Notes under the pieces: generated by a model
Database searches by the model: none
What the model was told of the DNA's origin: nothing
What the model saw: only the letters and a program-made list of their open reading frames with translations
From: Dysidea avara
Taxonomy: Eukaryota; Porifera; Demospongiae; Dictyoceratida; Dysideidae
DNA length: 64,000 nucleotides
Assembly: GCF_963678975.1 (NCBI RefSeq)
Contig: NC_089275.1
Location: forward strand, 36,990,819-37,054,818
Direction: 5' to 3'
Translations under genes and position numbers: made by a program
Shown here: in pieces, positions 20,661 to 62,030 of the stretch
Position numbering within the stretch: the first letter of the stretch is position 1
How the letters are laid out: each line of letters starts with the position of its first letter

Positions 20661-20680
20661 TGTGTTCTACTTTCCCATAG

Positions 20681-29934: not shown

Positions 29935-30114
29935 ATTTGATAAAGGTGGCCTCTCAATGCAGTTGGTCACTAAGACAGACTCCACTGTAAACTCCCCGAG
30001 ATGCTCCCAGTCTGCATAGCGATCCGGTGCTCCGCAAGAGCTAGACTATATACTCCGAGATATACTCCAATCAATACGTAGCTACAGTAGCAATAACAGC
30101 AGCCGGGAACTCAC

Positions 30115-30222: not shown

Positions 30223-30268
30223 TGGGTTTCGTGACATCCGGTTATACACGCATGCGCGGTCAATTACT

Positions 30269-32645: not shown

Positions 32646-32836
32646 CAGGTGTCCTCATTTTTATGTGCTCAAATTAACAGGTTCTACAATATGTAGTAGT
32701 AGTACGTAGCTACAGCTGCAGCCACTCAATACTGGGGTTATTATTCCAATATTGAGTATCTAGATGATGCAGCTGCAGCTACGTACTATGTACATATTGT
32801 GGAACTTATTTGGGCACATAAAAATGAGGACACCTG
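32646..32836. repeat. 191-bp foldback element
   Basis: The ends are inverted repeats, CAGGTGTCCTCATTTTTATG and its complement. A second inner palindrome (GTACGTAGCTACAGCTGCAG against CTGCAGCTGCAGCTACGTAC) and a CAATACTGG/CCAATATTG centre make almost the whole unit self-complementary. The copy in block B is at 54304-54491. Confidence 0.8.
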
Positions 32837-34495: not shown

Positions 34496-34759
34496 CATTG
34501 TGGTTTTGTAGGAAGTGATGTCAATACCACATGAACTATTGTGTGATTAACATTACATAGTTGATAACTTGATACATTAATAATAACAATGATTGGTAAC
34601 TGTATACACAACACTGATCATATAGCATATTAGGTCACATAAAACTGCAGCTTGTATTGTACTCCACAAATATAATGTCTGATGCCTTGTATATAGGACA
34701 TTTGTATATGAGTTATTGGCAATTGTCCTGTTTGAATATATAGTAATTATGGCAGTCTA

Positions 34760-35118
34760 TTTAAGAGATTTCAAATAAACATTACTTAATTCTTCAGTGC
34801 TGCAAAAAATTATTACTTAATGCATTACATGTGTAATGTGTTACCCCAGCACTTTACTGAATTAATAGTTATTGTATATCCATAATAAACTTTGAACTGT
34901 TCATTTTATTCAATTTTACCATTATGAGATTTTAGAGGTGCACTGATATAACCTCTTTTTTTTCTTTTTACAAAAATGTTTTGGCAACAATCTTTTTACC
35001 TTTTTGTCATTTTAATAATTATTGTAGTGTCCATACTGAAAACCTTTTATGCAGCTCAACAATATTATACAAAATGCTAAGCCCTTGATGAAGTAAAGTG
35101 ATATAGCTACATACTTAT
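34760..35118. repeat. Segment inverted relative to copy B
   Basis: This stretch (TTAAGAGATTTC ... GCTACATACTTAT) appears as its reverse complement in copy B at 57031-57399, between the same flanks (GGCAGTCTA and ATATGATAAGTCTGG). It contains a hAT-like end, on the minus strand CAGTGCTGGGGTAACACATT. Confidence 0.85.
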
Positions 35119-35510
35119 ATATGATAAGTCTGGATTATCTTTGCAAACATCCTACAATTGTGGATTTAAATTGGTAACTTATAATTCTTAAATTATGCTG
35201 GCATATATTTTAGTATTTCAGCACTGTATATATGTATTACCTTTATCACATACAATAATGCAATAGCTCTTGGGCAGGTGGTACTATCATGCATGTGCAT
35301 ACTGTATAGTAACTAGTTGTTTTAGAAGGTAACTTACTGTTTTAGATCATTAATGGTAATAATGAGGTCACTTCTGCATGGGACTAAAATATGTCCTCAA
35401 TAATAATGAAATCTTGTTAATGAGGTCATGAAGTACGTACATGCATCACAAGCCACTATGACATTTCCTCCAACCATGAGCCAACTGTATGGACAACAGT
35501 TGCAATGACA

Positions 35511-35770
35511 TATATGTGACTGAATTTTGGAAAATCACCCATATGGGCACGCCTGAAATAATTAGAATTTTCATGTTTGGTGGGTTGCTATTATGAGCAG
35601 AGGAGAGCTATAAAAATATTTCTAAAATTTTCTAGTAATTTAAGGTATTGAGAATGGCTTAAAACCATCAACAAGTACATTTGCACTATAAAGCTTGTTA
35701 TTTGGTCATTAAATATTTTAAGTGTCAAATGTGCCCATATGGGTGATTTTCCAAAATTCGGTCACATATA
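35511..35770. mobile_element. 260-bp MITE with GTGACC ends
   Basis: Inverted ends of about 40 bp: TATATGTGACTGAATTTTGG plus AAAATCACCCATATGGGCAC, mirrored at the right end. Same outer motif as the element at 18609-19262 but different inside. The copy-B equivalent is 57788-58047. Confidence 0.8.
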
Positions 35771-35859
35771 TGCTTAGCCAAACATCATTTATACATAACA
35801 TTGATTATATGTGTTTTGCATGAGTGGCACACCTGTGTAATCTGGAAATCTAGTAATAG

Positions 35860-36690
35860 TCTCTGCAGGTTGATTTGTTTGTAGCTCAACTCACTAAAGG
35901 GTGATTTGCTTGTAGCTGAACTGCTTACATTGTGTCTAGTTTCTAGCTGATCTCTCTACAGGGTGATTTGTTTGTAACTGACCTCTCTACAAGTTGATTT
36001 GTGTGTACCTGATCTCTCTGCAGGTTGATTTGTTTGTAGCCGATCTCTCTACAAGGTAATTTGTTTGTAGCTGAACTCTCTATAAGGTGATTTGTTTGTA
36101 GCTGATCTCTCTGCAGGTTGATTTGTTTTAGCTGAACTCTCTACAGGGTGATTGCTTGTAGCTGAACTCCTTACATTGTGTCTAGTTTCTAGTTGATGTC
36201 TCTACAGGGAGATTTTTTGTAGCTGAACTCTCTACAGGGTGATTTGTTTCTAGCTTATCTCTCTACAGGTAGATGTGTGTTGATTTGTTCATTGCTGATC
36301 GCTCTAAAGGTTGATTTGTTGTAGCTGAACACTCTGCAAAGTGTTTTATTTGTAGCTGATCTCTCTACAGGGTAATTTGTTTGTAGCTGAACTCTCTCCA
36401 CAGTGACTTGTGTGTAGCTGAATTCTGTGTAGCTGAATTCTCTAGAGAGTGACTTAATTGTAGCTGAATTCTCTACAGGGTGCATGACTTGTTTATAGCT
36501 GAACTTTCTTCAGTGTGACTTGTAATGTTCTGAATCTCTATAGTGATATATTTGCTTAATTCTCCACATGGTGACTTGCTTCTTGCTGAACTGTCTATAA
36601 GATTAACTGTTTGCAGCTGAACTCCCTACAGAATAACTTGTGATGTAATAAAATTCTATAATGGAGTAAATAAATTAGCCGAATGCTCTA
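35860..36690 (+). repeat. 31-bp minisatellite array, copy 3
   Basis: About 26 imperfect units of GTAGCTGAACTCTCTACAGG plus GTGATTTGTTT. It starts exactly where duplication copy A ends, and copy B lacks it. It is followed by the composite repeat body. Confidence 0.9.
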
Positions 36691-37702: not shown

Positions 37703-39289
37703 TAGGGACCCGCCGATTATGCTCATAATTTTACCTATTATGCTATGCTGCACTGCTCAAAAATTCACCTATTATGCTTAAATCAATGCTCAATATTTAC
37801 CTATTATGCTCGATTATGCTCAATGTTCATGCCTTAGTTCATATGCTTTGCTACTAGTTTAACACTGTATAGAAAAAAATGAGTGGCTGGAGCATAAATC
37901 TGCATGTAAGAGAAAAGATCGATATACTCTAATAAAACAGTCAGTTTGATGATTATTCTATTAGAGTTACTGACTGCTCTATTAGAGTATGTCCCTGCAG
38001 TTCCAGAATCAAGATTATTCCATATTGTCGGCTGCCCAAAGCCAATTGTCCGATATGCCATCAGCACGGTCTCTTTACAAGAGAGCTAAGGATGATTTGA
38101 CTAGTAAAATTACTTCTGACAGTGAAGCCCATCTCAATCAACTCACTGTGCAATGCAAATTTTTGGATTCTGCTAGGTTAGAAACTAGCTGCAGAACATG
38201 GAATAAGTTAATGACTGGATTTCACCCTGGGCAACTTTCTTTCTTGTTGAGAGCATCCTCGGACACTCTGCCTACTGCTGTTAACCTGCGTCGCTGGCAC
38301 ATACAGTGTGGTGCCAAGTGTACCCTTTGTGACTCTAACCGGCCAACTACCGCTCATATTTTAGGTGGTTGCCCAATAGCACTATCCCAACAAAGGTACA
38401 CCTATAGACATAATCAAGTACTGTTCACTTTAATTTCTCAGTTAATTACTCTCTTTTCTGATTGCCAGATGGTCAGTGTCTATGCGGACCTGCAGGGACA
38501 TCGTTTTAATGACTCTCCTCCTGAAACCATCCCCTCCAATGTCTTAGTCACTCCTTACAGACCCGATGTTGTCATCTATAACAGACACTCTGCATCGATG
38601 GGCATTATAGAGCTTACATGTCCATTGGACTCAATACATCATTTGGAGTCTGCACACAACCGCAAACTTTATAAACCTGAGTATGTACAGCTTTTGGCTG
38701 AATTGGATCGTTTGAAGATTCCTCACTGCTACAGAACTGTGGAAGTCAGTGTTTTGGGCCATTTTCAACCTAGTTCTATTGCTGCAATTAAGGATGTGAT
38801 AAATTTTACCCAGCAAGTATCCCTATTTTCCAAGGGAAGTGCTAGAAATCTTTTGTTCAAGATGGCCAGTGCCTCAATTTCTGCTTCACAGAGAATATTT
38901 TATGGTAGGAACTCTAAAGAATGGACAATCAACCCGGACTGTTTTTAATCTGTATATAATTTAAGCTGTAACTTTAGTTTTGTACTTAAATATAATTATT
39001 TTTTTTCCTTGCCATGCCCACTGCTGTCCACTGTTGGTCAGACATGTGGTCGCATGTTGTCCGAGGACACATAACACATAATATATAATTTGTTTGTAAT
39101 CATGCATGTTTTCTCATCAATTATTAGTGATGGCTCTCTCTTCTATCGATCTTATTTTGCAATTGTCATTTTTCCAGCAAGAATTTATATTATCGTACAA
39201 ATATTTAACCTATTATGCTGGCATTATGCTCAATGCTTTTAGGTACCTATTATGCTCAAAATTAAGCCAGCATAATCGGCGGGTCCCTA
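37703..39289. mobile_element. hAT-bounded unit with perfect ends and 8-bp duplication
   Basis: The inverted ends are identical over at least 20 bases (TAGGGACCCGCCGATTATGC). The flanking duplication CACATGGT is perfect (37695-37702 and 39290-39297), so this inserted as one unit, probably recently. The subterminal zones repeat CCTATTATGCT, as in the element at 6788-7842. There is no transposase; the interior carries a CTCTATTAGAG pair and a LINE-derived ORF. Confidence 0.92.
37989..38948 (+). CDS. LINE-derived zinc-finger plus restriction-like endonuclease ORF (319 aa)
   Basis: An uninterrupted ORF that resembles the C-terminal end of RLE-type non-LTR retrotransposon proteins (R2-like group). 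A CCHC finger lies in NLRRWHIQCGAKCTLC through HILGGC (C111, C114, H123, C128). A PD-(D/E)xK-like core follows, with RPD at 191-193, IELTCP at 207-212 and Lys residues at 226 and 229. The reverse transcriptase that normally precedes these domains is absent. In the parent family the nuclease nicks the target DNA. The ORF starts right after a CTATTAGAG pair inside a hAT-bounded unit. Whether it is expressed is unknown; it may be a captured fragment or a domesticated gene. Confidence 0.68.
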   Translation: MSLQFQNQDYSILSAAQSQLSDMPSARSLYKRAKDDLTSKITSDSEAHLNQLTVQCKFLDSARLETSCRTWNKLMTGFHPGQLSFLLRASSDTLPTAVNLRRWHIQCGAKCTLCDSNRPTTAHILGGCPIALSQQRYTYRHNQVLFTLISQLITLFSDCQMVSVYADLQGHRFNDSPPETIPSNVLVTPYRPDVVIYNRHSASMGIIELTCPLDSIHHLESAHNRKLYKPEYVQLLAELDRLKIPHCYRTVEVSVLGHFQPSSIAAIKDVINFTQQVSLFSKGSARNLLFKMASASISASQRIFYGRNSKEWTINPDCF

Positions 39290-43960: not shown

Positions 43961-44370
43961 GAGGAATCCTAGAACCCTGCCATCACAGTTAATTGCACTG
44001 TGGGCAGCTACTAAGGGACCAAGTGTACACAATCACTTTTTATGATGATGGTAATGACAGTCAACTTACACAACTAGCACCAAAATTGGTAAAGCTGGTA
44101 AACATTTCAAATGATTTACAGTATGTAGTTGTATATAAACTGATACAAAATCATCAACACTAACCATGTGTGTATATTTGACATTTAAAATAGATTTAGT
44201 ACGTGTATGTACTGATTGTAGAGTGCTAGATGACCACATTGAGATAACATATGCATGCATGACCACAAGTAAAATGTGATCTGAAAATGTTGCAAGTGTG
44301 CACTTCCTATAAAGCATCCAGACTTAATTCGGTAATAACAACAATACTGTGAAGTCACTCCACTGACTAG

Positions 44371-44377
44371 TATAAAT
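44371..44377 (+). promoter_or_regulatory. TATA box of subtilase-like gene 1
   Basis: TATAAAT lies within CACTCCACTGACTAGTATAA, about 73 bp before the ATG. The same block precedes gene 2 (59434-59440) and is conserved between them much better than the neighbouring DNA, so it is probably the core promoter with a start site near 44400. Confidence 0.6.
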
Positions 44378-44449
44378 ACAGTGATAGTCTAACCCTCATC
44401 ATTAGTATCACAGCAACTGAAGACTTAGACTTGACAAGAGAAGTCAGAT

Positions 44450-46206
44450 ATGAATATGATTTTGGAGAAGTTGAGTTTTCTGATTCTATCACTATCACTG
44501 GTCACTGGTCTACCAGTAGAACCAAATCTTGAGTTGATGGCTACAATTGATGATAGTGAAGTACACAGCAGAGAAGTGAGGTCATTGATTGATGAACTAG
44601 GATGGCATCTTGATAGGATTGATCAAAGATCACTACCACTGGATGGACGATACTCTCCATTGGCAACTGGTAACTGTTACATACATGTTAAAATTGTATT
44701 TTTGTAAAGTGTACATGCATGCACTCAACAAAGTCTGCTAAATATATGAATAAGTGATCCGGTCTGAGAAAAGGGGTTCCAAATTGTCAAGTTTGACTAG
44801 TCATAACTCCTCATGTTTTCAACCTATCACCTTCATATTACACCAAGCCATGGTGCGATGTTAGGGATATAAGAGGACTAAATGTCAGGGTGATACCACA
44901 TTCACAAGTCAAGTTACAGGTTGCCAAGTACATCCAATGGATAAAGCTATAACCCCTTTTCACAGACTGGGTCACATATGTATAAGTTACTACTGTATAT
45001 TCCAATGTTTGTAGGATCTGGAGTTGATATTTACATGTTTGGTGAGGGGATAAATCTTGATCATGAAGAATTTGAAGGTAGAGCATTTGATGGAGGATAT
45101 AGATGGCTCAGGAATCCTAGACGACCTAAAGATTGCTCTAGGAAATTTCATGGGACACAGGTTGCAAGTTTGGCTGTGGGAAAATCTGTTGGAGTGGCAA
45201 CTAAAGCCAATATATACAGGTATATTATAGACTATATTCCATGTACTTAAACATTTATATTTAGCCTACTTGTGTATATACAGTATGTTGCATTTTAAAC
45301 TATACAACTACTTGTCTATATACAGCATCAAAGTGCTAAACTGTCAATTGGCTGGATACTTCTCAGATGTGATCAGAGGAATACAATACGTGATTAATGC
45401 AACAAAACTTACAGGACGTAGATCAGTAATTGCTCTACCACTTATTGGACCACATAGTCCAGCTGTCGATGACATCATTGAGCAAGCTGTGAGGGAAAAC
45501 ATTGTCCTTGTGGCAGCTGCTGGTAACTAAAAACCTGAGAATGTATCATCTGTGTAGTTCACAACCATTTTTATATGTAGGAAACTTCCTACAAGATGCC
45601 TGCAGTTATTCTCCTGCCAGTTCTCCACATGTAATCACAGTTGGTGGAACAGAAAAAGATGATAGACTTTTAGCAGGCTCTGCTGGATCAAACTTTGGGA
45701 AGTGCGTGACCTTGTATGCTCCAGCACGATCTATCCTTGCTGCTGCTGGTGGTAACAATGGTTACAGGTGAGGTGACCTATACTGCATGGTCAATATATA
45801 TAATCAATTAGGTTATATCAAGTGTGAACATGTACACAACACTTCTTTTGCTTGTAGAGAACTTAGTGGCACATCCTCATCTTGTGGAATTGTAGCAGGA
45901 GCAGCAGCTCTAGTATTGGAAAAGTTCCCTCACTATACTCCTCAACAAGTAAAAGAGTACCTCATTGATCAGTCAACACCAAGGGTAGTCCAAACAAGTT
46001 CCAAGAGGTACAAAGTGAAGCCAAACAGATTTCTTTATGTTGGAGAGGAGGGTAAGTGATATTATAATAATGTACTGTTGTGTATGGCTGCATACAATCA
46101 CAATTAATGTCACTAAATTATACTAGAAGTCATTTGATCTTGCTTATTTTAATTTATAGAATCTGATTTTGATGGAAGTGGATCTCTAGGAGTAGTATTT
46201 GGATAA
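44450..46206 (+). CDS. Secreted subtilase-like pseudoprotease 1 (349 aa, six exons)
   Basis: Exons: 44450-44669, 45015-45219, 45326-45522, 45581-45767, 45858-46051, 46160-46206; GT-AG sites with phases 1-2-1-2-1. A signal peptide (LSFLILSLSLVTG) is followed by a linker and GWHLDRIDQRSLPLDG, which is the mature N-terminus of proteinase K-type (S8A) enzymes. The roughly 80-residue I9 propeptide is missing. The catalytic Asp site reads IYMFGEGI, with G83 in place of Asp. His is kept (FHGTQVAS, H119), as are the oxyanion Asn (AAAGN, N209) and Ser (SGTSSSC, S276). The usual MATP after the Ser is SSCG. Loss of the Asp makes proteolysis unlikely; a binding or decoy role is inference. Paralogue at 59521-62030. 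Confidence 0.88.
44754..44976. mobile_element. MITE in intron 1 of subtilase-like gene 1
   Basis: Inverted ends GTGATCCGGTCTGAGAAAAG and, read inward from the right, GTGACCCAGTCTGTGAAAAG, continuing GGGTT. Another member of the GTGACC-ended group. It is absent from gene 2. Confidence 0.72.
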
Positions 46207-47059
46207 TGGAACTATTTCTATTGCCAGTGTATATTTTGAAAAGGAATAACGACCATTGAAATTGATTGTATTACATACTTAGACTGTGAAAAAGATTTAA
46301 GCAAATTTTAATTCAGTTTCAATTGAAGGGGTCAGTGGAAAAATGAGAATGTACCATTTTAAATTTTCTTAAAATTAGAATGGCTTGTTTTAGCCGTGTG
46401 AGTAATATTGTCACTAAGTAAACAACAGAATTTAAAAGTTCATGGTATTCTCAAACTGATGTTTAGCGAATGTTACAATAATTTAATTATGTCCCAATAT
46501 TCTGTTTAATGCCTACTACGTGGTCACCTAAATTTTCAAATGGCACTTGTCCCGTTTTGTCGCTGACCCCTTCAATTTGACATGGCGTACAGTACTTAAT
46601 TTGCAAAAAATTCCTGATGTAGCAGTAGCTATGTGTATGCATACACTTGTGTCTAGAATGCTACGATAGTTTAAACAAACAGCCATAAATTTGATTTTTG
46701 TTGTATAGAGTATCCAGTCCTACTGGTCTGTTACAAGTAATTCATCCATGTAGAAAGCATCTACTAGTTTTGCATAACTGCTCATCATGATACCTGGCTA
46801 CAAACTTATGGTAGCTGTAGCTATATGCATGTGCACCATTCAAGTAACTGATGCAAATAATGATAACAATACATATTTATGATTTTTGCATTGATTCTTA
46901 CAACATGTCTAGCTGTCCAGTAACAATATATTTGCTAATCAAACTCCACAATAAATGATAAGAGCAAGGATAACAAATATCTACAACAATCCTAAGTACA
47001 TTGCTTCCTCAATAAACACCAAGTCTCCGAATCTGCCCTTGGATGTCTGGTCCTGCATG
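46207..47059. other. Intergenic 3' of subtilase-like gene 1
   Basis: No gene or clear repeat. A GAAGGGGTCAG... and CTGACCCCTTC pair (about 46325 and 46563) hints at a TIR element of about 250 bp, arms about 15 bp. Confidence 0.35.
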
Positions 47060-47400
47060 CAAACATCCTACAATTTGAAAATTACTTTTGCAAAATTGAT
47101 GATCTACAATTCTCAAAATTATACTCTAAAGCATAGTGGCTAATTGTGTATAGTTTTATTACTTCAACATTGTATATACACAGTGTACCTTTATCATTAA
47201 TATAGCTACACACATACAATAATGCAATTGCTCTTGAATAGGTGACACTATGCCGTATATGGTAACTGGTTATTTTGGAATTTACAATTTAGTGAAACAT
47301 ATGTAACCAATTAATCGTAATAATGAGGTCACTTTTGGCACTAAAATGTATCCTCAATGATGATGTTAATGAGGTCATTATGTATCTACAGCTTAGTGAA
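47060..47400. repeat. Diverged third copy of a segment of the tyrosinase block
   Basis: Matches 35140-35440 and 57420-57720 with many substitutions and indels. Shared anchors are CAAACATCCTACAATT, ACATACAATAATGCAAT, TAATGAGGTCACTT and TGTTAATGAGGTCAT. It is far more diverged than copies A and B are from each other. Confidence 0.65.
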
Positions 47401-47584
47401 CATACATATTAATTTTGACATGGTAAACACAATGATATGGCTATTGAACATTAACACTTTTGTGGCTTCCCCAATACATTTTCTATTGGTTTTAATTGGC
47501 AGGTTTTTAAGTGTGATATGATTGGTAAGTTTAATGGCACTGTATCTATTATTAAAAAAAAGTACAAATCAAATACATATTGTA

Positions 47585-48121
47585 CAGTGAACCTCACTAC
47601 CTCATTATTAAGGCCACCTTGTTATAGTGGCCAGGTTCAGAAAGTCCAGATGTATCTTCCATATTATTCCATTGATTTAATTTTCGTTAATAGGGCCACC
47701 TCATTAATAAGGCCAGTGGCCACATACTGCAGGACCAAACTTGTAAAACTAACACAATATTCTCTTAATAAAAGGGCCAGCTGAACAGACAGTCAACGTA
47801 CGTGTATCACTACAAAAGTTGCTGCTCCTGAGTACCTGCCAAAAGCTATGCCAATATAGTTTTAGAAATGTGCTTCATGCTTTTAGCAGCCATTATGCCT
47901 CAAGTAAAGAGTAATCCCATCTGTGCATTATGATGAAACCTGTAATATGTGTATATAGCTGTTACAGCAACTATAGCCAGGTGTTGATTTGTTGAAAACC
48001 TTGATAATAAGGCCACTTTGTTGATGGCCGGATTAATGAGGTTTTCATTAATAAGGCCACCTCACTACTAGGGTCACTTATTGTGGGTCCCAAAGGTGGT
48101 CCTATTAAAGAGGTTTCACTG
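47585..48121. mobile_element. Tc1/mariner (pogo)-like MITE with TA target
   Basis: Ends CAGTGAACCTCACTACCTC and, read inward, CAGTGAAACCTCTTTAATAG, each flanked by TA (47583-47584 and 48122-48123). Internal repeats of TTAATAAGGCCACCT run in both directions. No transposase ORF. Confidence 0.72.
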
Positions 48122-48550
48122 TACCAAGATTGGTGCTTTTATCAAAAAGTGAACAATTTTTTGCTTAGCCACTCTACTATATAATTTATTATTTTCTTGT
48201 ATAATTTCCTGATCATTTGAATAAACCTCTGCAATGAAAAGATACTGATTGAATGAATTTATTTCTATGATACTCTTTGCAGAACAGATAGGAAATCTAT
48301 GAATGCTACAGTTGATGCTAATTCAGTGTCTTAAGTGCTTGATCTGCAAAATTTCTGGGATATATGTATGTGCATACCATTGACATGAAAGGGTAGTATA
48401 AATTAAGTCCATTTGTAGCTATAGAATATCTAACTATTCTGTTGGAATATCTAAGTAGATTCATTTGATATCAGTATCTTTCTTTTTATTGAAGAGGTAG
48501 CACCCTCAGTTGTCTCAATAGTAGCTGTATTGCTGCTTGTTATAACTTAT
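48122..48550. other. Intergenic before duplication copy B
   Basis: No gene or repeat recognised. Confidence 0.4.
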
Positions 48551-49334
48551 ATAAATGGCAACTATATCTATTGTGTAAATTTTTATGCTTACTGTATGTG
48601 TGGTAAACTTTGACAGTAAACTGATTCCTGTATAAGTGGCTATGATAAGTTTTAATATGTGACTCAGCCTACAATAATATATATAGGGCAAGTGGGTACA
48701 TAAAATTTGCCTGTGTTTTCAAACATTCATAATGCATAACACTATATTCCATCACACTATGGCCATACAATTTTTGAGAATTTATTTGAATTTTACTACA
48801 GTATAACAAAAATTATACAATGCAAGTATTCAATTCTAGTACTGAGATATCATGATCTGTTAAGTGATGGGGTGTATTCTGTGCCCACATGCCCTATTTT
48901 CGCAGGCCCTGTCATTTACATGAGTTGCTAGAAAAAGATTACTAACAGTAGACAATAGCAACCAGTCATAATCAACAGACTCACTGTAGTGCAACTGAGG
49001 CAGTTCACAACAATTTTAGTAAGTGTCATGCTAGATAGCTCAGATCATAATTGAACTATGATGCATGCTCTACTACATCTTCACTAATAACCCTCATCAG
49101 TTTAAAATCATGTCTAATAATTCACCCTTTTTCACAGCTTGGCTGTTTTGGAACAGATTATATAATCTGTATATATGCCAAATAGCAAAATTATATATCC
49201 ATACAATAAATGCAAGTCTATAGAATCATATGCATAGTATAATATGTGCATGTATTCACAGTTAATGCTGTTATATATTATACTGTGATAATAGGGTGTA
49301 GTTTTGCAAAAAAAGGTCTTTTACAATGTAATTA

Positions 49335-51510
49335 TCATACATTTGGCACATGGTTTGTAATGTTTGGTAGATTACAAAAGTACCCAAAATTATGAGACCG
49401 TGTGAACATGTCAGCATTAGTATAGGGTGGGAAAAATGGAACCATAAAATCATCAGATTGATGTCCCGTAGTGCTAACAGTCCTTGGTATATCATTAGGA
49501 TACTCTGCATCAGGGTGTAGCTCCAGCCACTTATCTAACATACAATCTACCATGGTATGGTGAAGAATGAAAAAAGGATCATTTGGTGATGCTCCAATAT
49601 CACCCATTTGTCCTGTCATTTCAAGTGGAAGACTTGACTTTGTGGTGACATCACCTGTTGAAGTAATGATATGAACCTAAACAAGACAAAGGAGAGTACG
49701 CAACAAACAATGACACGAATCATACACTTACTGAAGTATGCATTTGTTTTGTAATTGCTATCTCAGAGTCTTTGGCACACTGAGGGTCAAAAGAAGGAGC
49801 ACAGATACATATTCTGTTTGTACTGCACTCAGTTATATTAAAGTGAATATCATGATCAACAAAACTTCGATAGCTTTTTTGTGATAGAAGGTTATAAGGT
49901 GGAGCATCATAGTTATCAATAGCCATAGCATTATTTACTTGCTGACTAGTAGGCCAATCAGGATTGTTGCTACTGCATGGATCAGTTCCAGTGAATGGAC
50001 AACGTTGAAGGGGACCGGTGTTAACATTTGGATCACAAATTTGAAAGGATGTTTGCCAACATATTGTGTCCCATCCATCACTGACAATATCTCCAAATAC
50101 ACGAGGAAAGCCACTGACATTCCTTGTTACCCCAAGCTTATTTTCTGTAAAGAGATCTTCTGAGAGTATTCCGTTACTAGACCTTTGAATTTCAATTCGC
50201 CAGTCCCAATAAGGTAGCCTAAAAGTGTGATAGTCCACTTGTTCCATGCTCTTCAACATATGTTGTATCTCCCACTCAAGCCACAAGTTGAAGTATTTGT
50301 GCCAAGTTGGGAATGCTGGTCCGGTGTGAGCATAATCCAAACGATTTGCTAAATCTAAATTTTAAAAGACATATGCATGTATATATTTATATACGCACAG
50401 TATAGTAACTCTGTTAACATTATATACCTACCATACATGCTAGCTTTTAAAAACATATAGCTGTGTACATATCAGTCCAGTGGCATATCTAGACTCTCTG
50501 GTTTGATAGGGGGAAAAGGTAACTGCCTGCTCACAATGGTGCCCCTCCACCAACTATAATATCACTCATAAAATACATAAATCCTTATTATAACTGCATA
50601 AGTTTGTTACACTGCTTCTCTGAATAGTGTGATATTAGAGTGATTGACTGCTCTATTAGAGTACTTGATCTCGCACACAAATTTAATACCTCTGGTATGA
50701 CACCAAATTCTTTGGTAGGGCACCAGAATTCTTTGGTGGGACACAGCCCACACCTAGATACTCCACTGCATATCATTGAATGCTGCCACAAATCAGACAG
50801 TGGATGCACACTACAACTTACCTATTGTAAAAGCATCTTTTGCAGCATAGTGATGCATCCAGACATACAAATTATAAAGTGATATGTTTGTCATGGAGAG
50901 ATTTGTGGTTCCTGGAACTGCCTCTTCCAATACAACCATGTACCCTGAGTCAAATGAACGTGACAAAAGAATAATATCAATGAATTCAGCCCAGTCACTA
51001 TCAGTGTAGGTAGCAACAGATCGTCGAGGAAGAACCTGTGACTGGGTGCAACCAGGGCCATAGTAACCAAACCTACACCGGCTACAGTCATATCCAGAGT
51101 AATTTCCAATGCACTGACAAGCCTAAAAAAAGAAAAAATAATTATAATAATTAAATCCTGCGGGTTTAGGTATTGTTAAATGGTGATCATGTACGTATAT
51201 TTATAGTGTAGTCAATTATAGTGGTATCGTACATTTAGGATTAAGTATTAGTACTGACCTTGGTGAAATAGTGAGGCCAATTGCGACGGACATCAGTACC
51301 TCTTTTGTTGTATCCAGGCAAGCTCAATTCAGTACACTGTCCCCTACCTGCATCCTGTCCACAGACACCATCATCTGTAGCTGGACAACACTCCAACTTT
51401 TCCAGACTTTTAACATCACTGCATGCTGTTGGTATTTGACCATAAAGTTCCTGCCCCAACACATATAACAAGGCAATAGCCATCAAAGAAACTTGATCAC
51501 TTATTTGCAT
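49335..51510 (-). CDS. Secreted tyrosinase, copy B (505 aa, four coding exons)
   Basis: Exons: 51510-51259, 51122-50822, 50354-49732, 49676-49335, with the same phases as copy A. Signal peptide, Cys-rich EGF-like part and both copper sites are intact (VWMHHY, YAHTGPAF, TWHKYF, QMHTSVHI, PFFILHH), so it should be an active phenol oxidase of the secretory route. It lacks the 17-residue repeat of copy A. Outside that repeat I count 14 amino-acid differences. Five fall in the roughly 30 residues before the first copper-B His, where copy A has an N-A-S glycosylation sequon and copy B has K-D-S. The reading frame is fully open, so both copies are under constraint or very young. Confidence 0.9.
50478..50768. 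mobile_element. hAT-like MITE in tyrosinase B intron 2
   Basis: The same element as 27902-28198, with a small internal deletion at about 50633 that shortens the CTATTAGAG pair. Confidence 0.65.
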
Positions 51511-51722
51511 TTTAGCTATGCAAAAAAAATAAGCAAGACAGCATAACTAGCTAGCCACATATAATCCATGTACATATTAGTAGACAAAATATTGAGGTTT
51601 ATAACTATTATCCATGGAACTTCACACACACATGTACATTAGCACATATTAATATACTTTAACAGTCTACATAATTATACATTATATAGGCCGCGTACTT
51701 CACAAACTGCCATGATGGGTAG

Positions 51723-52084
51723 CAGGGGTGGAGGAAGTAGTTGATATGAGGGGGGGGGGGGGGGCTGGGCTGACCCAGACTTATGGAAGTGAGGTGCTAC
51801 ATTGTCTCTGGTTTGGTAAGGTGAGACCAAAAAAAAAAAAGTCACAACCAGCTGATAATAGCTGCTCACCTCACCAGCTATGCATTTATAGCTTATAAAC
51901 TACATACAAATCCTTCTACACACTGCTCTAATGCTGCGACTGCTTTATTAGAGTGATTGCTCTATTAGAGTATCTCGATCTTAATCACGGTTTTCAGCCC
52001 CACTCCAAGAAGGATAATTTCGGCGTGATATCATTCTGAGGGGGGGCTAAGCCCCCTAGCTACCCCCCCTTTCCGCCACCTATG
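51723..52084. mobile_element. hAT MITE upstream of tyrosinase B, complete
   Basis: Starts CAGGGGTGGAGGAAG and ends CTTTCCGCCACCTATG. A perfect 8-bp duplication ATGGGTAG flanks it (51715-51722 and 52085-52092). G- and C-runs lie next to each end and a TTTATTAGAG/CTCTATTAGAG pair sits inside. Confidence 0.85.
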
Positions 52085-52668
52085 ATGGGTAGCTATACAT
52101 GCGGTGATAGCTAGCTACCTGCCTAGCTACCTCTGAATACGTATATAGCTATAATGGTCACCTTTACTTGTAATAAATACAGGCTGGCTAGCGATAGTCT
52201 CGCGTGGCCAGATCGCTATATCTCGCCTCCTCTTTTTCTTTGTGACGTCATGTTTGCGAATTTCCATTTTCCACGTGTATCTAGCTTCATTGGTTTGTTG
52301 TAGCATGGCAAAACATAATTTTTTTACCGCAAACTTCGTGACAGGGCTGATAGCTACTGTTGCTACGTAGCATTTTCCCAGCAAGAATCTGTCAACCGGC
52401 GGAATTTCACCAGACCTATCTCACCGACCAATGGCATCACAAAGAAAAAGAGGAAGCAAGATGGAGGTCTAAACACGTGAGACTATTATTTGATAAAGGT
52501 GGCCTCTCAATGCAGTTGGCCACTAAGATAGACTCCACTGTAAACTCCCCGAGATACTCCCAGTCTGCATTGCGGTCCGGTGCTCCGCAAGAGCTAGACT
52601 ATATACTCCGAGATAATACTCCCATCAATACGTAGCTACAGTAGCAATAACAGCAGCCGGGCACTCAC

Positions 52669-52780
52669 CTATAGCTACCAATTGGTCACGTAGCTTTGTC
52701 ACAATGAAATCCACTCGATAGATATCAACTCTGGTCACAGTATCTAGCTGTTTAACTGTGCAATATCCCTCGCTTTTATA
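52669..52780 (-). promoter_or_regulatory. Candidate TATA box and 5' UTR exon of tyrosinase B
   Basis: TATAAAAG (52780-52773, minus strand) is followed by the splice donor TATAG|GTGAG at 52669, equivalent to the copy A signals. A 60-codon minus ORF crosses this exon but copy A breaks it with a stop, so it is taken as noncoding. Confidence 0.45.
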
Positions 52781-53373
52781 TGGGTTTCGTGACATCCGGT
52801 TATACACGCATGCGCGGTAAATTAATGTACTTTACAGTCTATATATTAAACCTTTCCGCTTTTACTACGCAGCAAAAATTACTTATTCTCACAGCCGAGT
52901 GTCATTCAGTGCGGTACAAACTCCAACTGCTTGGCTTAGCTATAGTATAGGGTGGCTATAGCTACAATAAAGCCACCACAAATACAATAATAAGAATCCA
53001 CATCAGCCAGAGACTGCAACAGTGTAATATTGTACTGTGTAGGCAAGTTCTTTGGCATGTGTTTGACAAAATTGATGATCTAATTTTAATCTAATAGCTA
53101 GCTGCTTACACTGTGAAGTAGACTGTATAGCTATACTGCTGTACATTAAGTGAGTTGAGTTAGTTAGCTGTTTTTTTTTTGTTTGTTTTTTGTCTTAGTA
53201 TCTTAAAAAAAAGTTAGCTGTTCTGGTTTCCACATAGAGTATTGACTTTACTGAGTTATTGTTGGCTTTCACACTTCTTTTGATGGTGTAACAATTGACT
53301 CCTAAGACTGTGACACTTTCTGACTTGTTGACTTGAAGCTGTATAGTGGCGAGTACAAGAGTATAACACTATA

Positions 53374-53598
53374 GTGTACTTGTATACATGTAGGACACCT
53401 GTAACATTTGTAGAAGACACAAGAGAAGCACCATGGCTAGATGACAAACCCACTACACTCCCTTACAAACAACGACATGCTCATGCTATTTGTGAGTTCT
53501 GTCCAACTGTGACAAATATTAGAGCAAATGTTATCCAGTTGTGTATTATTCCAAATGTCTGCACACATCCAAGAAAATTCATACAAAATAAGTCATAA
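53374..53598 (+). CDS. Possible exon of an unknown gene (copy A version disrupted)
   Basis: After the acceptor-like TACATGTAG the frame is open: VEDTREAPWLDDKP, then HAICEFCPTVTNIRANVIQ and PNVCTHPRKFIQ. In copy A (31709-31944) the same frame is broken by about 36 bp near 31785. No family recognised. Four Cys and several His could suggest metal binding, but chance is just as likely. Confidence 0.18.
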   Translation: MYLYTCRTPVTFVEDTREAPWLDDKPTTLPYKQRHAHAICEFCPTVTNIRANVIQLCIIPNVCTHPRKFIQNKS

Positions 53599-54303
53599 GG
53601 AGGTAGTTGTTATCACTAACTTTTTCTTGAAACTTGATGTATAACTGTGGTACCAAATGCTTGTTCATCTAAAATAAAAATTGTCTCTCTGTTGACAACA
53701 TCATTTCTACATAATATATGTTGATCACAATCTTTTACATGCACATACGTAGAACATTCTATGTCAAAACTAGTTTCAAACAGATAGTCAGCACCGTGAC
53801 ACTCTTTTAACTTTTAAGGATAACATGATGTTTAGAGAAACAAAATTTGTGGTAAACACATCAGTTTGCATAACAGATCAGTGCTCCCTAGACCCAAAAT
53901 AGTAAATACAAATATTTATTGATGTTGATATAATAATAATGTTGATCTTGCTCCCTATACCTACAAATGTTGATTATACGTAGAACTGGTGTTCTAATGT
54001 TGCTTTTTGTCAAAACCAGTTTTAAACAGATAGTCACACCATGACACTGTTTTATACATAAGATAATTATAACATGATGTTTAGAGAAGCAAAATTTGTA
54101 GTAAACACATCATTTTGTATAACAGATCATGTCTTGCTCCATAAACAATACTGGAATGGACCTGTGTGTACTTTTATTATTTGAGTAACTGGAACCTAAT
54201 AGCTATATGTACCTTGGGTTAACCAGTGGTATGCTATATTTCTAGATCAGTGTCCAGGGCTTCCTGGTCAGATTGTTTGGACCAAATGTTCGCAGTATAT
54301 ATA

Positions 54304-54491
54304 CAGGTGTCCTCATTTTTATGTGCTCAAATTAACAGGTTCTACAATATGTAGTAGTACGTAGCTACAGCTGCAGCCACTCAATACTGGGGTTATTATT
54401 CCAATATTGAGTATCTAGATGATGCAGCTGCAGCTACGTACTATGTACATATTGTGGAACTTGTTTGGGCACATAAAAATGAGGACACCTG
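54304..54491. repeat. Foldback element, copy B
   Basis: The equivalent of 32646-32836, 3 bp shorter in the GTAGTAGTA tract. Confidence 0.8.
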
Positions 54492-54796
54492 CTGTTTCTT
54501 GAGCACTGAGTTATGGACTTCTGAGTTCGTAGAATTGGATGTGTGTGGAAGACCCTTTTTTGCAAATCCGGTCACACTTAATAATTATTAGCATTACTGT
54601 TTTGGACCTAAGGAATATAATATTGTATATACATAATTAAGATGTTGTGCAAACTGACATTTATCATTGCTACTCTAAAATATCATGCCTCACATGAAGC
54701 AGTCTTGTTCTGTAACTTTGTTTATCACTGACACTACTTAATCAAACTCTTGTAGACATGATGTTGTTAAAAGAGACAAGTTCAAATCAACTCCAA

Positions 54797-55419
54797 GACC
54801 TGATCTTGGAAAACCTACCTTTTTGGCACATTGGTCAATTTTCTGTTTTATAGCTTAATTAAGGTACTGGGTACTCATCTATCTTGTGTCAAAATTTCAG
54901 CTTAATATCTTTAAGCATTCCTGAGATATGGCCAATTTTCTCTCCTGTACATTACAAACTAACTTTTATGGTAATGTATTGAGTTCTGTGAGTGATTAAG
55001 GGTGACAAATGGTGACAAATCTCTTTGTTTACCAATAATTCCGTTTTTACCATCTAGAATACTTTAAAAGACATTTCTGATAGTTTAATGATGTATTCTT
55101 GGTACATTTCTGCAATTAAATCCCATGTATTATTGTCTAAGACTAAGTTTTAGCCATTCCAGCACCTGAACAAATCACCCAATTTGTAAGTTAATTGTTG
55201 TCCCACGCATGTGAAATTACTACATGATCTGATATAATCATCCATATCTCCTAAGAAAAAGAAGCTATGGGTGTGAAACTTCAAAGCAAGAAGGTTTAAT
55301 AGTTGCTTTATCCAAATGTGCAAAAAAAATTAATATTGAAAAAATTGTTGAAATTTTCAATTGTGTTTTCCCAAAAAGTTTGCTTGTGCCCAAAAGGTAG
55401 GTTTTCCAAGATCCGGTCA
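54797..55419. mobile_element. MITE unique to copy B
   Basis: Copy A shows the empty site (actccaaataac at about 33137). In copy B a 623-bp unit is flanked by CAA on both sides (54794-54796 and 55420-55422). Ends: GACCTGATCTTGGAAAACC and, read inward from the right, TGACCGGATCTTGGAAAACC, continuing TACCTTTTGG. A 3-bp duplication fits PIF/Harbinger, but the ends look like the GTGACC group. Confidence 0.82.
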
Positions 55420-55894
55420 CAAATAACAAGCTATTGGACAGTGTACCCAACACAGTTGTACATCAAGCTTCAAGAAGAAGATTGGAAAGCTTGTGATCTC
55501 AAACATAGGCTATTCTAAGCAGGGCTAGAGGGAATCCCCCCTCCACCCCTTCTCCCCACTGGTTTTGCTGTCAATGTGGAGAACAGCCCATCCAGCTGTA
55601 AAATCAATGGGTACCTGGTTTTAACTGGAGAATTCATGTCTCACACAGTGGGGAAAATGTCCGGGTGGAATTTTGGGTGCCCACACACTAACACAGTACA
55701 GCATCCTGCTGGTTATAGTCCTACCCCAGGAGGATTTTCCTGCACTGACTCCTAACACCTAAGTAGCGCACAGGTGTCCCAGTTCTGGTTCACTGGGTAG
55801 GCGTGTCTGTGCTAGTACAGCAGCTGAAAGTTTGCTTTGCTTTTGTGTGTGGGTTTGTGTGCGTGTGTGTGTTTAAGTCAAAACGTGATCATTA

Positions 55895-56766
55895 CAGGGG
55901 CGGATCTAGGATTTATAAAGGGGGGGGGGGGCTAACTCAAGGTACTAATCTCTTGGATAGAGTCCCAGCATGCTGGAACTAGGGGGGTCTGGAGGCATGC
56001 CCCACCTAGGAAATTTTTGAAAAGTAAATGCTAAAATACTGCAATTTGGAGACATTTCTAGATAAAATTCATAATATTTTCTGTTTGTAGATATTTTATA
56101 TACTACCTTTAGATTATAGGTATGGCTCTCTGAAGCATTTTGCTAATGGAAAAGTTTGGATAGGTACAGACAACCAAGTACATGATGCACCCCTCCCACA
56201 ATTGCACAACATTGAATAGGTGCATGATAGCTAGAATAAGAATGTTGAAAGTGGAAAATTTTGAAATTTGAACAATACAGGATTGAATCTGAGAACATTT
56301 TCAATGGAAATTGTGTACCTGAATTAAGTATTGCCATACATATTAACTACACAAGTAGATGAATGAAGCCTTTTAAACAGATCAATGCACTTCATTGTAT
56401 GCATGTATAGGTGCAGGCAGATTTGGAAAAATTCCATAACAGAACCAACTACATGTTTTCAGTGAATGTTCTATTAGAGTAGTTAGCTGACTGCTCTATT
56501 AGAGTATCACGATCTTGTACACCTCCAATGCTGATCCAAGTCCTTGTTGCATAAACTTTAGCATAAATCCACTGATGATACCTTGGAAAGATGTTTATAA
56601 GGTGGATTTATGAGTATTTGTATTATTAGTGGTCATATAATTATGCTAAGACAAAATTTCATTATAATACTCAGCCTATTGATCAAGTAAAGCCTAAATA
56701 TGAAGGGGGGTTGGGGGGGCTTCAGCCCCCAAAGTCCTCCCCCCCTCCCCCCTGGATCCGCCCCTA
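55895..56766. mobile_element. hAT-like element with CAGGGGCGGATC ends, copy B
   Basis: The equivalent of 33618-34495; starts CAGGGGCGGATCTAGG and ends CCTGGATCCGCCCCTA. Several internal indels differ from copy A. Confidence 0.6.
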
Positions 56767-57030
56767 CATTGTGGTTTTGTAGGAAGTGATGTCAATACCA
56801 CATGAACTATTGTGTGATTAACATTACATAGTTGATAGTTTGATAAATTAATAATAACAATGATTGGTAACTGTATACACAACACTGATCATATAGCATA
56901 TTAGGTCACATAAAACTGCAGCTTGTATTGTACTCCACAAATATAATGTCTGATGCCTTGTATATAGGACATTTGTATATGAGTTATTGGCAATTGTCCT
57001 GTTTGAATATATAGTAATTATGGCAGTCTA

Positions 57031-57399
57031 TAAGTATGTAGCTATATCACTTTACTTCATCAAGGGCTTAGCATTTTGTATAATATTGTTGAGCTGCATA
57101 GAAGGTTTTCAGTATGGACACTACAATAATTATTAAAATGACAAAAAGGTTAAAAGATTGTTGCCAAAACATTTTTGTAAAAAGAAAAAAAAGGATATGT
57201 GAAAAGGTTATATCAGTGCACCTCTAAAATCTCATAATGGTAAAATTGAATAAAATGAACAGTTCAAAATTTATTATGGATATACAATAACTATTAATTC
57301 AGTACAGTGCTGGGGTAACACATTACACATGTAATGCATTAAGTAATAATTTTTTGCAGCACTGAAGAATTAAGTAATGTTTATTTGAAATCTCTTAAA
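57031..57399. repeat. Inverted segment, copy B orientation
   Basis: The reverse complement of 34760-35118 between identical flanks. On this strand it shows CAGTGCTGGGGTAACACATT, a hAT-like end, at about 57306. Confidence 0.85.
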
Positions 57400-57787
57400 T
57401 ATATGATAAGTCTGGATTATCTTTGCAAACATCCTACAATTGTGGATTTAAATTGGTAACTATAATTCTTAAATTATGCTGGCATATATTTTAATACTTC
57501 AGCACTGTATGTATTACCTTTATCACATACAATAATGCAATAGCTCTTGGGCAGGTGGTACTATCATGCATGTGCATACTATATAGTAACTAGTTGTTTT
57601 AGAAGGTAACTTACTGTTTTAGATCGTTAATGGTAATAATGAGATCACTTCTGCATGGGACTAAAATATGTCCTCAATAATAATGAAATCTTGTTAATGA
57701 GGTCATGAAGTACGTACATGCATCACAAGCCACTATGACATTTCCTCCAACCATGAGCCAACTGTATGGACAACAGTTGCAATGACA

Positions 57788-58047
57788 TATATGTGACCGA
57801 ATTTTGGAAAATCACCCATATGGGTACGCGTGAAATAATTAGAATTTTCATGTTTGGTGGGTTGCTATTATGAGCAGAGGAGAGCTATAAAAATATTTCT
57901 AAAATTTTCTAGTAATTTAAGGTATTGAGAATGGCTTAAAACCATCAACAAGTACATTTGCACTATAAAGCTTGTTATTTGGTCATTAAATATTTTAAGT
58001 GTCAAATGCGCCCATATGGGTGATTTTCCAAAATTCGGTCACATATA
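57788..58047. mobile_element. 260-bp MITE with GTGACC ends, copy B
   Basis: The equivalent of 35511-35770. Confidence 0.8.
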
Positions 58048-58138
58048 TGCTTAGCCAAACATCATTTATACATAACATTGATTATATGTGATTTGCATGA
58101 ATGGCACACCTGTGTAATCTGGAAACCTAGTAATAGTC

Positions 58139-59400
58139 CCCAAAAAATCCTTTATTAGCAAGCAAGCTAACCTGGAAATCAGGACACCTTGATAATCAGG
58201 ACACCAATGGTTGGTCCTGCATCCCAAGGTGTCACAGGTTTAACTATAGTAGCAGTGAGCCTATGTGTACATGTGTATGTATATAGCGTGTGTTTCGTGT
58301 GCATGCATGTATGTGGGTGTGCGTGTATATGTATATGTGTAATACCATAACAGTGATGATTGTGGCTGTGTAGCTAAGTGACTGAAGTCAGGAAGTGATG
58401 TCAAACCACATCATTTATATAGAATTTTATGACATGTAAAACAATGTAAACAAGACAACCACAAGAACTATGAGAGTAATGTCTTATCTGTAGTGTTGAT
58501 AGTTTGATAGCATGCACACAAATTCTAATAAGGTTACATGCAATTGTACAGTAATTAAACTATATAGCATTCCATAAAATTAATACACGTGATGCATTGT
58601 AGGATCTTTGTTAACTTTGTATGTGTTTATATTCAAAATTGTCCAATTTAAGGAAACGATTAGTGCATTAAAGTTGTAATAGTAGTAAGCATAGCTGCAG
58701 TTAATTACTATAATGGAGGGGTTTATTGGTGGTGAGATTTTGAAGATCAAGAAAACCATGTGGAGACACCACATGCACAATGGCATGTATATCATAGCAC
58801 CCTTCCTAGATGTATACCTTGTATATACAACCAGTCAAGAAAAATTTACAATGTCGTAGATATTCCATTAAATTTTGATAATGTCAATTTGTAAATTTGG
58901 TATTATGTGCCACAATAATAATTATAGCAGATCTTGTGTTAAACAGTAATATTTATTTTGAAGATGCTTTTGTACTACACGGAGTCTATGTGCCCAATCA
59001 GTTATATACAAGTGGTTAATTGTGGGTGCACTCTTGGTACTGTATCTCACCCCCTCATCTACAATGATTTATATGTTTCACCCACTCTTAATGACATCAG
59101 AGTACACAAATATTATACTGAAAGCAATAATATCATTGTGACACATTATGACATAGTCCACAGTATAAAAGTCGTCATTGTATCCATAAATGCATGCATA
59201 CATGCACACTGTAGAAAAAGGTACTATGTAGCTAAGTTTCTTTGTAGCTTTGCACATGTAAAGACACTGGAAGGACTGTATTTCTAAATACTGGTTCTGA
59301 CCAATGTACATAATGGGCAGTTAAATAAGTATATTTTTATATTGTGGTTATGAAGGTGATCTATATATATAGTGGATGTACTTCCTTTACCACACCCTGT
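58139..59400. other. Intergenic before subtilase-like gene 2
   Basis: No convincing gene. A GTGTGTATGTATATAGCGTG-type TG-rich tract lies at about 58265-58345, and a short inverted GGACACCTTG/CAAGGTGTC pair at about 58180-58235. Confidence 0.4.
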
Positions 59401-59433
59401 GATTATATACTGTGATGTCACTCCACTGACTAG

Positions 59434-59440
59434 TATAAAT
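59434..59440 (+). promoter_or_regulatory. TATA box of subtilase-like gene 2
   Basis: TATAAAT in the same conserved block as gene 1 (CACTCCACTGACTAGTATAA, then CAGTGATAGTC and CCTCATCATTAGTATCACA). Predicted start site near 59464; the ATG is at 59521. Confidence 0.6.
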
Positions 59441-59520
59441 ACAGTGATAGTCAAACCCTCATCATTAGTATCACAACAACTGAAAAGCTAGACTTGAGAA
59501 AAGTACTTAAGTCGACAGAT

Positions 59521-61007
59521 ATGAATATGATTTTGGAGAAGTTGAGTTTTCTAATTCTATCACTATCACTGGTCACTGGTCTACCAGTAGAAGATGTTCA
59601 GTTGATGGTTGCAATTGATGGTAGTGAAGTACACAACAGAGAAGTAAGGTCATTGACTGATGAACTAGGATGGCATCTTGATAGGATTGATCAAAGATCA
59701 CTACCACTGGATGGACAATACTCTCCATTGGCAACTGGTAACTCTATTCATACATGCTGTATGTAATTATGTATACTTAAATAAAAGTTGCATTTGTGCA
59801 CCTCTGTCAGTCTTCTTCATGTGTACTTGTGTTGTATAGGATCTGGTGTTGACGTTTATGTATTTGCTGAGGGAATAAACCATGATCATGAAGAGTTTGA
59901 GGGTAGAGCATTTGATGGAGGATATACAAGACTTAATGCACGTACTGGACAACCTGAGGATTGCTCCAGTAAATATGTTGGGACACATGTAGCAAGTTTG
60001 GCTGTGGGGAAATATGTTGGAGTAGCAACCAAAGCCAATGTGTACAGGTATGTATGTGCTACTAATTATGTGTGTACATGTGCAACACTTGCTACACATA
60101 ATATACATACAGTATTGTTATATTTAGTTCTTATATTGTTAATAAAAGCTAGTAGGTGCCCATCGCTTTGGACGTAACATTACGTTGCCCTATTAATTTT
60201 GCTCTGTAAAGCACTTTTAAACTCAAGCAGTTACTTGTATAGACAGATAAGTGTATCAACAGTGACATTCATACAGAGTACATGCAGAATGTAGAGTAGA
60301 AAGTAGCACAGGCAGATGGTACACACTTTCCCAGTGCTTTACCACATACATGTAGTACACATAATACATATTATGTACATCACTGTTGTACTATAATACT
60401 AAAGACATCAGAGATGATCTCATAGTACAGTTTACCTAACCCAAGCCACATAAGCAAACAGAACCATAACAACAGTACTCTGTACATATCCATTGACAGA
60501 ACCCAGGGGTGCACTATGTCCACACCTCATGTGCTTAAGATTGGCCACTGCAACCCACTATAGTATGTTCACGTTGAGCTGAATCCTCAAAAACATTTAA
60601 TAACTCATGGATGTAGTTACACATGATCTTGAAATTTGGCTCATCTGTAGTACTGCTTGACCCGCTAAAAACATTCCAAAATCTTTTTGTTCAAATTAAT
60701 GTTTGACATAATATTTACGGCCAATCAAAATTTTCACAATACATTTCCTATGGGGAAACCGTATAAGTATAGTGTCCATTACAGCCCTTTCCCAAACTTG
60801 TAATGAAGCCAAACCGTATGTGTCTGTTGTTGACACTTTTGCTGTTACCAATAATCATCTGGTTGGCTGAAATGTTAACTCTGTTGAGAAAAAATCCACT
60901 TTTAATTTTTAGCTGTTTTTCAGGATTCAGCTCAACATGAACATACTATAAATGTGTCTATATACCAAGTTTGGTCAAGTTTATAAGAACTGTGCTTGCT
61001 CACACAC

Positions 61008-61066
<59 letters not shown>

Positions 61067-62030
61067 AGATCACTATACTGATATGTATATATGGATAGAT
61101 ACATAGATAGATAGATAGATAAATGCAAGTCTACTTTTCATACAGCATCAATGTTTTAAGCTGCCGAGGGTCTGGATCCTTCTTTGACGTGATCCTAGGA
61201 ATACGTCATGTGATTAACAGAACACAACTCACAGGACATAGATCAGTAATTGCACTACCACTGGTTGGACCTCCCAGTGATGCTGTTGATGATGCTATTG
61301 AAGATGCTGTTAAAGAAAATATTGTGATTGTGGTATCTGCTGGTGAGTGATAAATTTATTCTCAAATATTATTGCTGAATAATATGTAACAACCTTATAG
61401 GAAACAGCCTGACCGATGCCTGTAAATTTTCTCCCGCCAGTTCTCAACATGCAATTACAACTGGTGGAACAACAGAAGATGATGGACTCTACAGTTCTCC
61501 TTTTGCAGGATCAAACTTTGGAAAATGTGTGACCTTGTATGCTCCAGCACAATCAGTCACAGCTGCTAGTGACAACAATGGCTACAGGTGAGGTGAAATA
61601 TATATGTATTGATCAACATGATCAATTAGATAATATTATCAAATGTGGACATGAACACAACACTTCCTTTGCTTGTAGAGAACTTAGTGGTACATCCTCA
61701 TCTTGTGGAATAGTAGCAGGAGCAGCAGCTCTAGTATTGGAAAAGTTCCCTCACTATACTCCTCAACAAGTCAAAGAGTACCTCATTGATCAGTCAACAC
61801 CAAGGGTAGTCCAAACAAGTTCCAAGAGGTACAAAGTGAAGCCAAACAGATTTCTTTATGCTGGAGAGGAGGGTAAGTGATATTATAATTACACCTCACT
61901 TGGCATACTCTACATACACAATACTAACAAATGTGTCACAAATTAGATTGAATTTACACAAATCATAATATGATTGTTTCATATAGATGATATTGATGGT
62001 AGTGGAACTCTAGGAATAACAATCGCCTAA
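59521..62030 (+). CDS. Secreted subtilase-like pseudoprotease 2 (348 aa, six exons)
   Basis: Exons: 59521-59737, 59840-60047, 61146-61342, 61401-61587, 61679-61872, 61987-62030; the same phases as gene 1. The start was chosen by match to gene 1; an in-frame ATG at 59494 is also possible. Same signal peptide and mature-type N-terminus, again without an I9 propeptide. Two triad residues are gone: the Asp site reads VYVFAEGI (A82) and the His site reads YVGTHVAS (V119 in place of His). Asn (SAGN, N209) and Ser (SGTSSSC, S276) remain. Exon 5 is almost identical to that of gene 1, while exons 3 and 4 differ widely. Intron 3 is enlarged to about 1.1 kb by a MITE and CA repeats. Confidence 0.88.
60559..60950. 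mobile_element. MITE in intron 3 of subtilase-like gene 2
   Basis: Inverted ends TATAGTATGTTCACGTTGAG and, read inward, TATAGTATGTTCATGTTGAG, both followed by CTGAATCCT. Flanked by A/T-rich sequence; the target site is not certain. No ORF. Confidence 0.75.
61001..61124. repeat. CA and GATA microsatellites
   Basis: An almost pure (CA)n tract at 61001-61066 is followed by a GATA-type tract at about 61089-61124, just before the exon 3 acceptor of subtilase-like gene 2. Confidence 0.95.

Follow-up and report, generated by a model that had tools for sequence, protein, structure and literature searches.

PCSK9 is a secreted protein that acts on a receptor without cutting it; it retains the catalytic triad for self-cleavage, its prodomain stays bound, and it carries a C-terminal cysteine-rich domain. 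The subtilase fold is also put to noncatalytic use in a bacterium and, through an alternative transcript, in a plant. Work on Clostridioides difficile describes CspC and CspA as subtilase-fold pseudoproteases with a nonenzymatic role, and CspC has kept Asp, has exchanged His for Thr and Ser for Gly, and has an uncleaved prodomain and a jelly-roll insert (PMC6636752). In Arabidopsis, SBT5.2(b) is described as an intracellular subtilase product that works independently of protease activity; it comes from an alternative transcript, and the same gene also gives rise to a secreted subtilase of the canonical type (PMC5074803). Here, we analyzed a stretch of 64,000 nucleotides (the window) from the sponge Dysidea avara (contig NC_089275.1), in which an earlier note, made from the letters alone, had pointed out two subtilase-like genes, gene 1 and gene 2, as possible pseudoproteases. 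Our analysis makes it fairly probable that these genes encode secreted, folded, and noncatalytic subtilase-domain proteins, and that they are tandem paralogues retained as binding proteins.

The pair differs from each of the described systems. Unlike CspC, both genes have lost Asp and have no space for a prodomain, and unlike SBT5.2(b), they are two separate genes with a secreted-type N terminus. PCSK9 belongs to the same branch by sequence, but genes 1 and 2 are without its full triad, its prodomain, and its C-terminal domain, and they do not qualify as PCSK9 orthologues. The loss of Asp, the missing prodomain space, and the tandem arrangement, in a genome whose short introns and NLR-like neighboring gene also suggest an animal, would set the pair apart from CspA and CspC, SBT5.2(b), and PCSK9.

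Results

Both predicted proteins matched Peptidase_S8 (PF00082) above the gathering score of 21.8, with 106.1 bits for gene 1 (E = 3e-30) and 98.7 bits for gene 2 (E = 5e-28), and a Pfam scan of both proteins at E values up to 1 returned nothing besides this domain. The closest solved chains were 8c4z, a bacterial extracellular serine proteinase (E = 1.5e-50 for gene 1 and 2.1e-52 for gene 2), along with PCSK9 (best E values of 8.4e-45 for gene 1 and 1.8e-38 for gene 2) and further enzymes of the proteinase K/aqualysin type, and the alignments to solved relatives stopped near residue 330 to 335 of 349. We take the branch of both genes to be that of proteinase K and aqualysin, MEROPS S8A. Aqualysin-1 and the bacterial extracellular serine proteinase (4dzt and 8c4z) aligned along the whole domain, with the 8c4z domain 43% identical to that of gene 1, and they share the W.LDRIDQ motif, the cysteine positions, the oxyanion Asn, and the nucleophile position with both genes. 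In the alignments, these aqualysin-type chains differ from genes 1 and 2 in showing Asp, His, and SLGG together; where the nucleophile would stand, 8c4z itself has Ala (SGTAMA).

For comparison, we used 117 relatives, namely, the best 80 of 583 confirmed bacterial loci and all 37 confirmed viral-contig loci, whose open frames were extracted and aligned with both window proteins. Redundancy was kept, and viral rows of equal score may be copies. The patterns used for fetching left the triad unspecified and thus did not impose its conservation; they did specify W[HG]LDRIDQ, and the conservation of that motif is in part imposed by them. Four cysteines, which correspond to two disulfides (positions 114, 148, 215, and 249, the last being 250 in gene 2), are kept in both genes, and each was conserved in 104 to 105 of the relatives.

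None of the 117 relatives lacked the catalytic Asp, His, or Ser or the oxyanion Asn. At these positions, gene 1 carries G83 (codon GGT), H119 (CAT), N209, and S276, and gene 2 carries A82 (GCT) and V119 (GTT), followed by the same Asn and Ser as gene 1; the codon for this Asn is located at the beginning of exon 4. The Asp-His-Ser triad is thus incomplete, with Asp gone in both genes and His gone in gene 2. This assignment agreed with the alignments to solved relatives, and a profile made from the 117 relatives alone, with both genes excluded, gave the same alignment with the highest posterior band at the Asp column. The same profile placed an insert before His less certainly, yet it put G-T directly after the His position. 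The substitutions G83, A82, and V119 named in the earlier note were borne out exactly by all three comparisons, and the S8A landmarks that it had listed also stood, with a domain match from end to end and the oxyanion Asn and nucleophile Ser retained. Its description of a dismantled triad holds in full for gene 2 but not for gene 1, in which Ser and His remain. The pseudoprotease status of gene 2 has good support, and that of gene 1, with its Ser and His, is probable.

Changes were also found outside the triad. In the SLGG strand, which is the floor of the substrate-binding site, both genes replaced Ser with Pro at position 180 (Ser in 117/117 relatives) and Gly at position 182 with Ile in gene 1 or Val in gene 2 (Gly in 108/117). 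Both carried Ala for Gly256, a position that was Gly in 117/117 relatives, and Gly (G280) for the Pro four residues past the nucleophile, which was kept in 114/117. A Glu adjoins the lost Asp (E84 in gene 1 and E83 in gene 2), where 97 of the 117 relatives had Thr and 20 had Ser, and a two-residue insert stands directly before the His position, where 111 relatives had no extra residue, 3 had one, and 3 had two. Among the 40 columns conserved in at least 95%, gene 1 had lost 10 and gene 2 had lost 11, compared with at most 4 in any relative (none in 75, one in 24, two in 15, and four in 3), a comparison that is tilted in the relatives' favor because the same relatives define the columns.

These changes bear on two other explanations. 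In the first, gene 1 encodes a weak protease working through a Ser-His dyad, possibly assisted by E84, and gene 2 alone is dead. The retention of H119, N209, and S276 and the position of E84 next to G83 would fit such an enzyme; however, gene 2 carries the same Glu without His, and PLIG in place of SLGG, the insert before His, the loss of Pro after the nucleophile, and the lack of prodomain space make it unlikely. In the second, the products are secreted decoys that absorb proteinaceous protease inhibitors and shield an active paralogue. Inhibitor decoys are a recognized use of dead enzymes, and both proteins combine a retained domain with an N terminus that is of the secreted type by inspection. 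Standard inhibitors, however, dock in the substrate cleft, a strand of which is altered in both genes, and a search of the 64-kb window with both proteins as queries gave no third paralogue at E values up to 1, which leaves this explanation with a small probability.

The products of the two genes are 77.5% identical. All ten introns (five per gene) have GT-AG boundaries, and the rebuilt models translate without internal stops, as had been claimed for the reading frames and splice sites. The ratio of nonsynonymous to synonymous change (omega, dN/dS), calculated for this one gene pair with a Nei-Gojobori script and 500 bootstraps, was 0.40 (0.26 to 0.58) in exons 2 to 4, with a dS of 0.50 and a dN of 0.20, and 0.46 (0.31 to 0.65) in the whole gene. 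The values for exons 1 to 6 were 1.45, 0.25, 0.39, 0.63, 0.11, and 0.86. Exons 2 to 4 are under purifying selection, which argues against decay, and the values for these three exons give no support to diversifying selection on them. With lost catalytic residues and a coding sequence under selection, the pair would classify as subtilase pseudoproteases.

Young pseudogenes, in which stops and frameshifts have yet to arise, could also explain triad residues that differ between the copies as if unconstrained, along with the omega values of exons 1 and 6, which come from few sites. Against this stand 349 and 348 codons without a stop or frameshift, the intact introns, the omega values well under 1 in exons 2 to 4 and in the whole gene, and the four cysteines kept in both copies. 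We consider decay very unlikely and rejected it on the intact frames, splice sites, and omega, in agreement with the earlier note.

Divergence was unevenly spread along the genes. The dS was 0.04 in exon 1 and 0.07 in exon 5 versus 0.41 to 0.61 in exons 2, 3, and 4, and synonymous changes numbered approximately 5 in 100 sites in exons 1 and 5 versus 54 in 148 sites in exons 2 to 4 (Fisher P = 2e-9). Exon 1 was identical at 206 of 217 aligned bases and exon 5 at 190 of 194. The low dS of these two exons, together with the 97% identity of the exon 5 tract, points to gene conversion, which is probable at exon 5 and is suggested by the high similarity at exon 1. The divergence of exons 2 to 4 argues for tandem paralogues rather than allelic copies. 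The damage to the catalytic machinery probably predates the duplication, because the exon 2 to 4 changes common to both genes sit outside the converted tracts.

Each protein starts with a hydrophobic stretch. The signal peptide claimed earlier stands by inspection only, since the hydropathy peak of 2.12 at residue 11 is equaled by a peak of 2.20 at residue 278 inside the domain. With this stretch included, 51 residues in gene 1 and 50 in gene 2 precede the domain Trp, leaving no space for an N-terminal I9 prodomain, and no second Pfam match appeared at E values up to 1. In 80 of 80 bacterial loci, at least 90 residues separated the domain from the earliest start codon that could be used. Upstream of the ATG, at 79 bases in gene 1 and 87 bases in gene 2, lies the element TATAAATA, within a stretch in which 89 of 102 aligned bases are identical between the genes; the claim of intact promoters stands only for this element in its conserved surroundings.

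Wrong gene models, with another exon that restores the triad, are hardly credible even with the long intron 2 of gene 2 (1098 bases), since the exon 2 frame is unbroken across both motif positions and exon 2 fragments of the 117 relatives found no other significant exon 2-like stretch in the 64 kb. These fragments matched both known copies (best E values of 4e-12 and 1e-14), no other Asp-bearing exon 2 appeared in the window (best E value elsewhere, 0.23), and the full-length relatives matched the window solely in the 44-, 45-, 59-, and 61-kb bins at E values up to 0.1. A triad-restoring exon, which the earlier note had named as a possible objection, was therefore rejected for the window.

Table 1. 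Coordinates of the two genes, their shared tracts, and other features of the window
Feature	Position	Strand	Remarks
Gene 1	44450..46206	+	six exons; product of 349 amino acids
Gene 1 exon 1	44450..44669	+	hydrophobic N terminus, ~30-residue linker, start of subtilase domain (WHLDRIDQRSLPLDGRYSPLAT)
Gene 1 exon 2	45015..45219	+	G83 at Asp position, E84, H119 at His position
Gene 1 exon 3	45326..45522	+	SLGG strand changed to PLIG (P180, I182)
Gene 1 exon 4	45581..45767	+	oxyanion Asn N209; Cys 215, Cys 249
Gene 1 exon 5	45858..46051	+	SGTSSSCG, nucleophile S276, G280 for conserved Pro
Gene 1 exon 6	46160..46206	+	short tail; stop at 46204-46206
Gene 2	59521..62030	+	six exons; product of 348 amino acids
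Gene 2 exon 1	59521..59737	+	hydrophobic N terminus, linker, domain start
Gene 2 exon 2	59840..60047	+	A82 at Asp position, E83, V119 at His position
Gene 2 exon 3	61146..61342	+	SLGG changed to PLVG
Gene 2 exon 4	61401..61587	+	oxyanion Asn; Cys 215, Cys 250
Gene 2 exon 5	61679..61872	+	SGTSSSCG with nucleophile Ser
Gene 2 exon 6	61987..62030	+	including stop
Promoter and exon 1 tract	44344..44687	+	90.7% identical to 59407-59756
Exon 5 tract with flanks	45816..46068	+	253 bases, 97% identical to 61637-61889
~10-kb direct duplication, first copy	25965..35861
~10-kb direct duplication, second copy	48551..58138
Tyrosinase domain (PF00264), first copy	27144..27785	-
Tyrosinase domain (PF00264), second copy	49720..50361	-
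~360-base stretch, first copy	34758..35119
~360-base stretch, second copy	57029..57401
NLR-like receptor candidate	20656..23202
Minisatellite	5000..5590
Minisatellite	16373..17700
Minisatellite	35860..36640
Retroelement-like remains	589..4169	+
Retroelement-like remains	12308..15889	-
Retroelement-like remains	37986..38948	+
zf-RVT match	37986..38945

Discussion

The preferred reading, that of retained binding proteins, can be put as a series of steps. Before the duplication, an ancestral secreted protease would have shed both the prodomain and the means of catalysis, with the subtilase domain retained as a binding module. This module may act extracellularly through surface contact with a protein partner, comparable to PCSK9 as a ligand or CspC as a noncatalytic regulator, with no cutting and no substrate mimicry in the cleft. 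The products of genes 1 and 2 may differ in the partners that they bind, as exons 2 to 4 have diverged and exons 1 and 5 appear to have been homogenized by gene conversion. We infer a ligand or scaffold role from the sequence; a substrate-like decoy role or the binding of inhibitors in the cleft is less likely, and binding through the surface is favored because the cleft strand is altered.

Several observations weigh against this reading of the pair. Gene 1 retains Ser, His, and the oxyanion Asn, and trace activity persists in a subtilisin that lacks Asp; because these residues are kept, a trace of activity in gene 1 is conceivable. The omega of 0.40 comes from a single gene pair and is silent on which function is kept, the value for exon 1 reflects just 2 synonymous and 9 nonsynonymous changes, and that for exon 6 was obtained on 42 sites. 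A missing prodomain was dropped as proof of inactivity, since 16 of the 117 relatives, all on viral contigs, combine a full triad with no more than 60 residues ahead of the domain (loci L081-L083, L086, L090, L091, L093-L096, L106, L109, L111, and L113-L115, with L109 cut by the contig end). Losses cluster only weakly around the active site (8/16 versus 4/24, P = 0.037, and 13/27 versus 15/56, P = 0.08), in zones that were defined once the losses had been seen. The comparison set is made up of bacterial and viral-contig sequences only, and active enzymes of animals might share nontriad changes of this kind. Finally, the exon 5 changes S277, S278, and G280 lie inside the converted tract, so that their sharing gives no date.

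If the reading as binding proteins is true, an animal case without a prodomain would be a clean example of an enzyme turned binding protein, and it would test whether subtilase domains fold and are secreted in animals without one. In the open-licence literature, judged by titles and abstract openings among the matches listed, an animal subtilase pseudoprotease was not found, and the nearest sponge work among those matches reportedly deals with prohormone convertases of Amphimedon (PMC6850559). Much more tentatively, the two genes might represent a family of secreted animal pseudosubtilases, so far undescribed, that lack a prodomain, have been maintained by selection and molded by conversion, and serve as extracellular recognition or signaling modules with the variable exons 2 to 4 setting partner specificity; we regard this as a doubtful proposal.

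Other features of the window

The two copies of the direct duplication are 93.5 to 97.7% identical in pieces, and each includes a minus-strand gene with a tyrosinase domain; the ~360-base stretch is inverted between them. Retroelement-like remains were recognized by eye at three places, and the zf-RVT match was the only one among the four retroelement-like frames scanned, with no Pfam match at E values up to 0.001 for the frames at 589-1131, 12308-13054, and 13504-14544. Three related minisatellites with units of approximately 30 to 31 bases, of the CTGTAGAGAGTTCAGCTACAAACAAGTCACC type, are present, one of them inverted relative to the others. The NLR-like receptor candidate is a single open frame of 848 amino acids with NACHT and LRR domains.

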